Below, piece after piece: positions 38,938 to 51,266 of a stretch of 52,577 nt of DNA. The stretch spans positions 1-52,577 of the forward strand of contig NZ_CAMAYF010000013.1 of assembly GCF_945862485.1 (NCBI RefSeq). Reading direction: 5' to 3'. The stretch comes from Sphingorhabdus sp. EL138 (GTDB lineage Bacteria; Pseudomonadota; Alphaproteobacteria; Sphingomonadales; Sphingomonadaceae). The position numbers were made by a program, and so were the translations under genes. The notes beneath the pieces are model-generated. The model searched no databases, had not been told where the DNA came from, and was given only the letters and a program-made list of their open reading frames with translations. Position 1 is the first letter of the stretch. Each line of letters opens with the position of its first letter.

Positions 38938-39546
38938 ATGATTGCAAAGCTGTATGGCCGGATTGATGAAACGGGCGTTGACCATCTGGTGATTGACGTC
39001 AACGGCGTCGGCTATCTGGTGCAGGCCAGCGCGCGGACGCTATCGGCCTTGGGCAAGACCGATGATTTCGCCACCGTCTTCACCGAAATGCAAGTGTCGG
39101 AGAACGACATGCGCCTCATCGGCTTTGCCACCCGCGAAGAACGCGACTGGTTCCGCCTGCTGACGGGCGTGCAAGGTGTCGGCGGTAAGGTTGGCCTCGC
39201 TATTTTGTCCGCGATCGAACCCGCCGACCTCGCGCTTGCCATCGGCAGCGGCGATGCCGCGATGGTCGCGCGCGCCAATGGCGTCGGACCAAAATTGGCC
39301 AGCCGCATCGTCAATGAATTGAAGGACAAGGTCGGCGCTTTGGCCGGCATCGGCGGCGGCGCAAAGCTGATGGCCACAGCCGCCGCAAACGGCAACCACG
39401 CACAAGACGCCATGTCCGCGCTTGCTAACCTTGGCTTCAAACACGGCGAAGCTGGCAATGCTGTAGCGCAAGCCGTCGAAGAACTCGGCCCCGATGCAAC
39501 CTTGGATGCGCTCGTCCGGCTGGCATTGAAACGGGCGTCGCGATGA
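38938..39546 (+). CDS. ruvA: Holliday junction DNA helicase subunit RuvA
   Basis: A 202-residue protein with domain I ([20 protein letters not shown]), the two helix-hairpin-helix motifs of domain II ([19 protein letters not shown] and [20 protein letters not shown]), an Ala/Gly linker and the C-terminal domain III that contacts RuvB ([20 protein letters not shown]). It binds the junction as a tetramer and directs RuvB. It follows the SOS box; the normal ruvB partner is displaced 552 nt downstream by a repeat-flanked nuclease cassette. Confidence 0.96.
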
Positions 39547-39570
39547 CATCTTACCCCGCCGCGCAAAACC

Positions 39571-39607
39571 GTCACCCTGAACTTGTTTCAGGGTCCATCG
39601 CGCAATT
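39571..39607 (+). repeat. REP-like repeat, copy A
   Basis: A 37-bp unit: GTCA, arm CCCTGAA, loop CTTGT, arm TTCAGGG, then TCCATCGCGCAATT. The arms form a 7-bp hairpin. It begins 25 bp after the ruvA stop. All 37 bases recur in the same orientation at 40038 (copy C). The GIY-YIG gene's stop codon (39606-39608 on the minus strand) overlaps its last bases. Confidence 0.92.
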
Positions 39608-39923
39608 ATTCTTGCGCTATCGGCGGGAAACCCAGCCCAACCGCCAAATCCACCCAATACGGATTTTCGGCGTTAAGCAGATTGATTTTCCAAGCCCGAT
39701 GCCAATTCTTCAATTGTTTTTCACGCGCAATCGCGGCCTCCATCGTGCCAAAAACCTCAAAATGCACCAGCCGGTAAATCGCATATTTGGACGCATGTCC
39801 TGGCGTCATGCCGCCCCGATGTTGCGAAAGCCGTTTGAGCAGGTCAGAGGTGACGCCGATGTACAGCGATCCGTAAAGCTTGCTTGCAAGTATGTATACA
39901 CAGGGAGTTTTTTCATTTCTCAC
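39606..39923 (-). CDS. GIY-YIG nuclease inserted between ruvA and ruvB
   Basis: A 105-residue single-domain GIY-YIG protein: PCVYILASKLYGSLYIGVTSDLLKRLSQH contains the paired Tyr motifs and catalytic Arg, EAAIAREKQLKNWHRAWK follows with the catalytic Glu region, and the family's short C-terminal tail NPYWVDLA is present. The family acts on DNA (homing, repair or restriction nucleases); the role of these small stand-alone versions is unknown. The start is uncertain: I use GTG at 39923, because the expected ATG at 39918 followed by A-residues (MKKTPCVYIL in relatives) is out of frame by one base (six A instead of seven). The gene lies entirely between inverted REP-like repeats, opposite to ruvA and ruvB, and looks like a cassette. 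Confidence 0.82.
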   Translation of the reverse strand: MRNEKTPCVYILASKLYGSLYIGVTSDLLKRLSQHRGGMTPGHASKYAIYRLVHFEVFGTMEAAIAREKQLKNWHRAWKINLLNAENPYWVDLAVGLGFPPIAQE

Positions 39924-39944
39924 GCGTTGGACAGTGCGGCAAAA

Positions 39945-40003
39945 TGGACCCTGAAACAAGTTCAGGGTGACGTAAATTGTTATCAGGGTGACGTAAATTC
40001 TGG
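39945..40003 (-). repeat. REP-like repeat, copy B, plus 21-bp tandem tail
   Basis: 39945-39971 is a 27-bp copy in inverted orientation to A (TGGACCCTGAAACAAGTTCA, then GGGTGAC). It lies 22 bp upstream of the GIY-YIG start. Its end is tandemly duplicated: TCAGGGTGACGTAAATT occurs at 39962 and again at 39983 (period 21 bp). Confidence 0.88.
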
Positions 40004-40037
40004 CAAAATGTTCCGCATGAATTCAAACCTCCACGCC

Positions 40038-40074
40038 GTCACCCTGAACTTGTTTCAGGGTCCATCGCGCAATT
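40038..40074 (+). repeat. REP-like repeat, copy C
   Basis: Identical over 37 bp to copy A and in the same orientation, ending 24 bp before the ruvB start. Recombination between A and C would delete exactly 467 bp including the nuclease gene and leave one repeat between ruvA and ruvB. Confidence 0.92.
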
Positions 40075-40098: not shown

Positions 40099-41124
40099 AT
40101 GACTGACGACGACCGCCTCACTACACCCGACAAACGGCCCGAGGATATTGACGCCGCGTTGCGGCCTAAAACGCTTGCCGAATTTATCGGGCAAGCCGCC
40201 GCGCGCGACAATTTGCGGGTGTTTATTGAGGCGGCGAAGGGGCGGGGGCAGCCGTTGGACCATGTGCTGTTCTTTGGCCCGCCGGGTCTTGGCAAGACCA
40301 CGCTGGCGCAGATTGTCGCAAAGGAAATGGGCGTCGGTTTCCGCGCCACCTCCGGCCCGGTCATCGCCAAATCCGGTGATCTGGCCGCCTTGCTCACCAA
40401 TTTGGAAGATGGCGACGTCCTGTTCATTGACGAAATTCACCGCTTGAGCCCCGTGGTTGAGGAAATTCTCTACCCCGCTATGGAGGATCGTGCGCTCGAT
40501 ATCATGATCGGCGAAGGGCCTTCGGCGCGGTCGGTGCGGATTGATTTGCCTGCGTTTACGCTTGTCGGCGCGACCACGCGGCAGGGGTTATTGACCACGC
40601 CCTTGCGTGATCGCTTTGGTATTCCGGTGCGGCTGAATTTCTATACCCATGCGGAGCTGGAGCTGGTGGTCACCCGCGCCGCGCGGTTGCTCGATTTGGG
40701 CATCGCCCCTGATGGCGCGAACGAAATTGCCAAGCGCGCGCGCGGAACGCCGCGTATTGCCGGACGCTTGCTGCGCCGTGTGCGCGATTTTGCCAATGTG
40801 GCTGGCGAACCCGTTGTCACCGCCAAAATCGCCGATAGCGCGCTCAACCGGTTGGAGGTTGATGCGCTTGGGCTAGATGCGATGGACCGGCGTTATTTGC
40901 ATATGATCGCCGACATTTATCGCGGCGGTCCCGTGGGCGTTGAGGCTTTGGCCGCCGGCCTGTCCGAGCCGCGCGACACGATTGAGGATGTGGTCGAGCC
41001 TTATTTGCTCCAGCTGGGCCTAATCGCGCGTACCGCGCGTGGCCGCTGCCTCAATGCGCCGGGTTGGAAACATCTTGGCCTCAACCCGCCCGCCGGGTCA
41101 CAGGACGGATTGTTTGACGCATAG
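40099..41124 (+). CDS. ruvB: Holliday junction DNA helicase motor RuvB
   Basis: A 341-residue AAA+ ATPase that drives branch migration with RuvA. Features: [12 protein letters not shown] at the start, Walker [13 protein letters not shown] (59-70), Walker [11 protein letters not shown], sensor 1 [18 protein letters not shown], sensor 2 [17 protein letters not shown] and the C-terminal winged helix ([21 protein letters not shown]). Length normal. Reads through from ruvA only if transcription crosses the repeat cassette. Confidence 0.97.
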
Positions 41125-51155: not shown

Positions 51156-51175
51156 GGAGAATCCTAAATAAGGCC

Positions 51176-51263
51176 GTCACCCTGAACTTGTTTCAGGGTC
51201 CATTGACCAACCTGAACTGCCAGTCGCGTGGTACGATGGATGCTGAAACGAGTTCAGCATGAC
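51176..51263. repeat. REPIN-like pair of inverted REP repeats (copies D and E)
   Basis: Copy D (51176-51202, plus) is the 27-bp core of the repeat at 39571. Copy E (51237-51263) is its inverted partner, but the stem reads TGCTGAA/TTCAGCA instead of CCCTGAA/TTCAGGG: two base pairs changed on both sides, one loop base changed. The two copies face each other across 34 bp with no gene, the same topology as copies A and B around the nuclease. Confidence 0.85.
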
Positions 51264-51266
51264 GGG

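Follow-up and report, generated by a model that had tools for sequence, protein, structure and literature searches.

A GIY-YIG nuclease gene between inverted CGTC-tagged REP hairpins as a candidate partner enzyme of the repeats

In Sphingorhabdus sp. EL138, a small gene for a GIY-YIG nuclease lies between ruvA and ruvB, antisense to both, and is enclosed by two inverted copies of a repetitive extragenic palindrome (REP). This locus raises the question whether the nuclease holds the place that a REP-associated tyrosine transposase (RAYT) holds in other REP systems, or whether gene and hairpins came together in another way. We analyzed positions 1 to 52,577 of contig NZ_CAMAYF010000013.1 (assembly GCF_945862485.1), the whole stretch being called the window below, together with related nuclease loci and genomes. 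Our best reading is that the nuclease is a RAYT-like partner enzyme for REPs carrying a CGTC tag. The cassette is composed as follows:

39606..39923, minus strand: 105-aa coding sequence of the GIY-YIG nuclease, beginning with GTG; its stop lies at the inner edge of REP copy A
39569..39607, plus strand: REP copy A, with outward CGTC tag, 8-bp stem, 5-nt loop and inward CCA tail; overlaps the nuclease stop codon
39944..39972, minus strand: REP copy B, a perfect 29-bp inverted copy of A with its tag outward; ends 20 bp from the nuclease start codon
40036..40074, plus strand: REP copy C, identical to A in 39 of 39 bp; ends 24 bp before ruvB
39570..39972: the entire 403-bp cassette, running from one tag to the other (REP, nuclease, inverted REP)

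An initial annotation of this DNA had described a 105-residue GIY-YIG nuclease between two inverted REP hairpins and opposite to ruvAB, and the strand and the coordinates of copies A and B bear this out. It had also placed before ruvB a third copy identical to A, which is correct except for its length, 39 bp instead of 37. PF01541 (GIY-YIG) is the only Pfam family in the protein (E = 5.3e-16; 59.1 bits against a curated cut-off of 22.6). Residues Y10, Y21, R31, E68 and N87, which have catalytic-type roles, are invariant in 27 of 27 aligned nucleases. An AlphaFold2 model with a mean predicted local distance difference test score of 82.6 gave weak matches upon comparison with the PDB, Slx1 among them. 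The predicted DNA fold of the repeat comprises a 4-nt tag, an 8-bp stem, a 5-nt loop and a 4-nt tail, and the window holds four matches to the 19-nt REP pattern (up to 2 mismatches), with 0.13 expected by chance.

How common is this hairpin in the host? In the 2.18-Mb draft genome (96.6% complete), the genome-wide search that the initial annotation had called for yielded 32 exact palindromes CCCTGAA-N3to8-TTCAGGG versus none for the reversed pattern. The 17-nt REP core was present in 70 copies at up to 2 mismatches, versus 2 for the reversed pattern. Neighboring REPs less than 100 nt apart formed 23 pairs, 22 of them inverted with their tags outward and spaced by 31-42 or 60-62 nt; the sole pair arranged otherwise is B-C. 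Such a predominance of one kind of inverted dimer is a trait of the CGTC superfamily of REPs. The nuclease cassette is the only REP pair of the genome that is 100-500 nt apart (374 nt). As it has the tag-outward orientation of the dimers and only its spacing differs, the cassette looks like a REPIN (REP doublet forming hairpins) whose spacer is a gene.

We then asked whether related nucleases are packed in the same way. The family set comprised 110 loci including our own (30 loci plus 80 fetched), all at E <= 3.0e-21, weaker matches being left aside. A class set contained 27 of 28 new loci drawn from part of the listed matches (L125 was dropped as a duplicate), a genome-collection set the best 80 of 568 loci found, and a plasmid-collection set 9 of 29 records with 400-nt flanks. 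The genus, family and genome-collection sets share species and are not independent. Because the fixed CTGAA motif is present on both sides in only 32 of the 110 family loci, and thus fails as a full account of the flanks, we searched without a motif for inverted repeats between the two flanks. A score of at least 12 counted as positive, and windows displaced by 600 nt served as control (a few control windows cut short at contig ends, e.g. at L084, L100 and L120, were scored 0). Inverted repeats flank 98 of 110 family nucleases versus 0 of 110 displaced windows, 21 of 27 class-level nucleases versus 0 of 27, 68 of 80 genome-collection nucleases versus 2 of 80, and 24 of 29 genus nucleases versus none.

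The orientation of the hairpins was counted as well. Tag-outward hairpins stand on both sides of 69 of the 110 family nucleases versus 11 with inward hairpins and none in displaced windows; the respective counts are 10, 1 and 0 in the class set (27 loci), 56, 15 and 0 in the genome collection (80 loci), and 17, 5 and 1 in the genus (29 loci). Whole REP dimers next to the gene account for at least part of the inward-facing counts. Among the 17 genome-collection loci that are non-alphaproteobacterial by their titles, 11 reach the repeat score and 6 do not; those with flanking repeats include Gammaproteobacteria, Burkholderiales, a Syntrophobacter and a planctomycete. In the plasmid collection, tagged flanking repeats were found at 7 of 9 loci. 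These include a gonococcal homolog, 51% identical to our nuclease and situated among CGTC hairpins. Several records of this collection, L334, L337 and L340 among them, exceed 2 Mb and resemble chromosomes filed as plasmids.

Could this packing be a matter of chance or linkage? REPs are generally extragenic, so they might pile up in intergenic gaps together with small genes, each nuclease inheriting its neighbors, and the preferred addresses of the nuclease lineages would fit such an account. Against it, only 2 of 137 other open reading frames in the same family loci reach the inverted-repeat score that nearly all the nucleases reach. The other GIY-YIG gene of the host genome, a 657-aa frame taken as uvrC from its length, has no CTGAA hairpin in its fetched locus. 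The match between nucleases and hairpins, which holds between loci of different gene context (see below), also speaks against chance or linkage, which we consider extremely improbable.

This match was studied in 86 of the 110 family loci, from 54 genomes, that have an inverted repeat scoring at least 14 and a tag nearby. Hairpin identity correlates with nuclease identity (rho 0.342); when hairpins were shuffled within genomes, the maximum rho was 0.294 and 0 of 2000 permutations reached the observed value. Because nuclease lineages have preferred addresses, we repeated the test on the 3454 of 3655 pairs whose members differ in both genome and gene context, which gave a rho of 0.313 with a permutation maximum of 0.275 and again 0 of 2000. 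Linkage was therefore rejected as the cause of the match. Hairpin classes, counted in 74 of the 86 loci, tell the same story: 65 of 74 nucleases agree in class with their closest counterpart from a different genome, and 64 of 74 still do when that counterpart must also lie in a different gene context (0.24 expected in both), and paralogs of the same genome share their class in only 5 of 34 pairs. On the nuclease tree, most forks of which are poorly supported, the hairpin classes need 12 changes versus 41.6 when shuffled.

Alignment columns 75 and 73 vary most with hairpin class; columns 40, 49, 8, 57 and 98 outrank column 81, and column 70 comes fourteenth, the list being a ranking only. Columns 70, 73, 75 and 81 lie around the helix bearing the invariant Glu68 and the next helix. 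Each nuclease lineage possibly has its own hairpin code, read near the end of the Glu68 helix and the start of the next.

Further observations were made on the repeats themselves. Six CTGAA REPs, in loci L001 (two), L281, L283, L306 and L307, and also one in L305, carry an interruption of 20-22 nt at one shared position, CTGAACTTGTTT^CAGG. The inserts form two sequence families, CACC..GGTGACT..ACGTTC and GTGCTCTGCA..CGGCTC, and could be the mark of a cut site or reflect REP variants copied elsewhere. REP splits at other positions resemble two adjacent partial repeats. In L281 (G409:C1), a nuclease copy is embedded in tandemly arrayed REP dimers that closely resemble one another and have similar spacers, an arrangement reminiscent of a cluster of bacterial interspersed mosaic elements.

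If the nuclease serves the repeats, its presence should go along with their number. CTGAA hairpins reach a median of 26.5 in the 30 genomes with a CTGAA-flanked nuclease versus 9 in the other 89 (p = 5e-8, kinship ignored), and TTCCCGC hairpins 7 in the 11 genomes with the cognate nuclease versus 1 in 108 others (p = 2e-4, kinship ignored). In the 31 genomes without any nuclease match, the median is 8 CTGAA hairpins; the reversed pattern gives a median of 3. Because association, nuclease-hairpin matching and copy number agree, the nuclease very probably recognizes its own repeat, as the initial annotation had supposed; on these sequence comparisons, recognition of the own hairpin appears strongly supported.

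A different enzyme, an IS200-like RAYT or another transposase, might nevertheless spread the REPs, with nuclease genes merely caught between them. Species bearing CGTC REPs often encode tyrosine transposases, according to PMC3733652, and the RAYT domain PF01797 has a match in 21 of the 119 family genomes searched. It was found neither in the host genome nor in 97 others of these, and the REP-richest genome, G066, is without a match. Such catching would also not yield hairpin classes specific to the nuclease, and we judge it very improbable. The earlier proposal that the nuclease takes the place of a RAYT in this REP system is supported.

Next to be considered is the address between ruvA and ruvB. 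The identities of ruvC, ruvA and ruvB are backed by NCBIfam, and the following features of the window belong to this part of the analysis:

38938..39546, plus strand: ruvA (NCBIfam)
40099..41124, plus strand: ruvB (NCBIfam)
39962..39999, plus strand: tandem duplication of TCAGGGTGACGTAAATT adjoining REP copy B
51175..51264, elsewhere in the window: ordinary REPIN of the cassette's hairpin class, two inverted CGTC REPs and no gene

In the genus, 29 of 30 loci have a readable ruvA-ruvB junction; the nuclease is present at 9 of these 29, our own included, and, judged by position, it also adjoins ruvB in two further genomes. At the 20 junctions without nuclease, ruvA and ruvB overlap, or the gap holds another insert or a 27-nt remnant. 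In L148 and L150 the two genes overlap by ATGA. The 27-nt remnant of L146 and L153-L155 corresponds to the 3' end of an insert present in L147 and L152; inserted DNA has therefore been lost in these four genomes, though what was lost need not have included the nuclease. Some close relatives have the REPIN at 51175-51264 and others do not, with no clean boundary visible.

In 45 pairwise comparisons among ten genus genomes, including G409 with its gene at another place, the nuclease has a median ratio of nonsynonymous to synonymous substitutions (dN/dS) of 0.097, and its dS tracks the dS of ruvB, with r = 0.78 and a median ratio of 1.15. Because dN/dS is about 0.1 and dS follows ruvB, the nuclease is, as judged from these substitution rates, an old resident kept under purifying selection within the genus and not a fresh insertion. 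The idea of a selfish element, put forward in the initial annotation, stays hypothetical, and a recent insertion at ruvAB is not supported by this pace. Nor did the refuting case named there arise, an insertion shared by every relative and holding decayed genes: the nuclease is patchily present in the genus (9 of 29 readable junctions), and the copies compared are intact.

The address recurs beyond the genus. In the family, 12 genera contribute 13 loci with the nuclease antisense at ruvA-ruvB (in 11 of them the fetched stretch covers both genes); L041 has it before ruvB in the same sense; and 29 of the 80 genome-collection nucleases stand antisense between ruvA and ruvB. In G118 (C6:79137-81728), REPs flank ruvB on both sides, and the best nuclease match of that genome lies on another contig (C13). 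Over 28 ruvAB loci, nuclease distances agree with those of RuvA and RuvB (rho 0.65 and 0.62), which is due to the close genus group; when that group is removed except for one close relative, L205, the values are 0.30 and 0.23.

It is conceivable that this place is functional, with the nuclease resolving hairpins or acting alongside RuvAB on Holliday junctions. The recurrence of the antisense position and the weak match of the model to Slx1 would suit such a role. It is countered by the addresses of other nuclease subfamilies, namely rplT-pheS (10 loci), sucD (6), biotin carboxylase (5) and a portal gene (4), genes being named by Pfam, and by the 20 genus junctions without nuclease. We also surveyed the ruvA-ruvB gap in 69 family genomes, 61 of them readable, known nuclease carriers there being omitted except G050: inserts of more than 250 nt are present in 36 of the 61, only one of them with a nuclease (L343). 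Thus, the link to Holliday-junction genes drawn in the initial annotation is weak, and a joint function with RuvAB is quite improbable. In the loci inspected (L343-L411, L145-L173), the gap is a frequent insertion place in the family, and some inserts resemble ParDE toxin-antitoxin genes by eye (L157, L167, L169).

How does the cassette compare with known systems? PMC2817692 describes RAYT systems as having inverted flanking REPs, co-evolution of enzyme and REP, and enzyme presence correlated with REP abundance; PMC8049555 describes RAYTs as vertically inherited single-copy genes. Here, too, we find inverted flanking REPs, co-evolution of nuclease and REP, nuclease presence tracking REP number, old residence within the genus, and short inverted dimers as possible non-autonomous elements. 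In contrast, the enzyme is a GIY-YIG protein and not an HUH/Y1 tyrosine transposase, the tag is CGTC and not GTAG, and several nucleases coexist in many family genomes, mostly beside different REPs in those inspected. Since transposase domain and GTAG tag are lacking, the cassette works like a RAYT system and is not a member of one. Vertical inheritance is matched only within the genus, where the nuclease appears to behave like a RAYT, i.e. as a long-settled gene rather than a transposon on the move. The claim of a new kind of element is tempered by this precedent and by the Neisseria nuclease Ssn (see below).

CGTC-tagged REPs have been defined by a CGTC tag, an 8-9 bp stem, a 4-5 nt loop and a CCA tail (Di Nocera et al. 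2013, PMC3733652); that paper reports that they form inverted dimers and occur mostly in Alphaproteobacteria. The hairpins of the cassette share tag, stem, loop, tail and inverted dimers, and their stem and loop lengths fit family CGTC-2 as given there. The superfamily is said there to lack a dedicated transposase, the term "giy" being absent from the main text, whereas we find a nuclease partner. Another repeat, dRS3, is named CGTC-1 in this source. Among the matches listed in the open-licence literature, we found no publication linking GIY-YIG proteins to REPs.

The GIY-YIG proteins UPF0213, Slx1 and UvrC share the fold and gave weak matches; they differ by low identity to our nuclease and by the missing CTGAA hairpin at the presumed uvrC of the host. 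A homing endonuclease was considered and rejected, as the nuclease sits in the ruvA-ruvB gap and not in an intron, an intein or a gene that it cuts. To our knowledge, the nearest known enzyme is the Neisseria nuclease Ssn, reportedly a site-specific GIY-YIG endonuclease of single-stranded DNA and, like our protein, small and stand-alone. The gonococcal homolog may be Ssn, and the CGTC hairpins around it presumably are dRS3.

Ssn is said to control the uptake or recombination of incoming DNA, which brings up a host-serving or restriction-like role. The nuclease would cut single-stranded DNA at REPs and thereby control incoming DNA, with the REPs as targets or self-marks that are not spread by it. 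The gonococcal homolog among CGTC hairpins, purifying selection, the recurring address and one homolog between genes annotated as MmeI and DISARM DrmA favor this view. By itself, it leaves unexplained why each nuclease is packed between inverted repeats of its own class, and a PADLOC search gave only weak and partial matches (best E 0.003). We regard it as possible, if doubtful. This last homolog, on Planktothrix agardhii plasmid p1 (L335), has no flanking tagged REPs; the MmeI gene beside it is annotated as type IIL.

In our estimation it is moderately probable that the cassette is an enzyme-bearing form of the REP/REPIN system of the CGTC superfamily, in which the nuclease recognizes and nicks the hairpin and thereby keeps the REPs going. 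The nuclease would recognize the CGTC-tagged hairpin in single-stranded DNA, as found on the lagging strand, in repair gaps or in incoming DNA, and would nick it; the nick might then be repaired, or trigger template switching, in a way that copies or converts REPs. Short REP dimers would be non-autonomous derivatives kept going by the nuclease.

Several observations weigh against such a partnership. Clear repeat pairs are missing at 12 of 110 family loci; homologs lacking the repeat were a refuting case named in the initial annotation, and with so few of them this test favored its reading. Such pairs are also missing at 6 of the 27 class-set loci, at 12 of 80 in the genome collection and at 5 of 29 in the genus; the two plasmid-collection loci without a tagged pair are the Planktothrix and Rhizobium homologs (2 of 9). 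The genome-count comparisons of REP number carry no phylogenetic correction, and a cross-test for two-way dissociation was significant for TTCCCGC (p = 0.025) and not for CTGAA (p = 0.10). REP-rich genomes without a nuclease match exist (G070 with 34 CTGAA hairpins, G032 with 32), and G068, G069, G114 and others are REP-rich with no CTGAA-flanked nuclease among the loci fetched. The comparison of ruvA-ruvB gaps, proposed in the initial annotation as a way to look for empty sites, gave no clean empty site and no tag-to-tag excision with target duplication, neither at the genus ruvAB junctions nor at the REPIN 51175-51264. Finally, in the 20 ruvAB loci outside the close group, the nuclease no longer follows RuvA (rho 0.11) or RuvB (rho 0.06), with 243 and 331 of 1000 permutations as high and a rho of 0.49 between RuvA and RuvB. 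Vertical descent at ruvAB across genera is not supported by these values, with the reservation that a short protein may have lost the signal; repeated arrival at the gap or transfer may account for the recurrence in other genera.

A wider proposal is that the CGTC-REP superfamily as a whole has stand-alone GIY-YIG nucleases as its dedicated enzymes. These nucleases would form a second, independently evolved class of enzymes bound to REP hairpins, recognizing the tagged hairpin in single-stranded DNA and maintaining REPIN populations from preferred chromosomal addresses, with one hairpin code per lineage. This strikes us as evenly balanced between true and false. Should studies of Ssn have already described flanking targets on a broad scale, what is new here would be confined to the lineage code and the correspondence with the CGTC-REP superfamily. 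Taken together, our results point to the enzyme that a widespread class of bacterial repeats had long seemed to lack, with matched nuclease lineages and hairpin classes as a convergent partner to the RAYTs. They also provide a natural table of small nucleases and their predicted target hairpins, which would be useful if the nucleases cut single-stranded DNA site-specifically.
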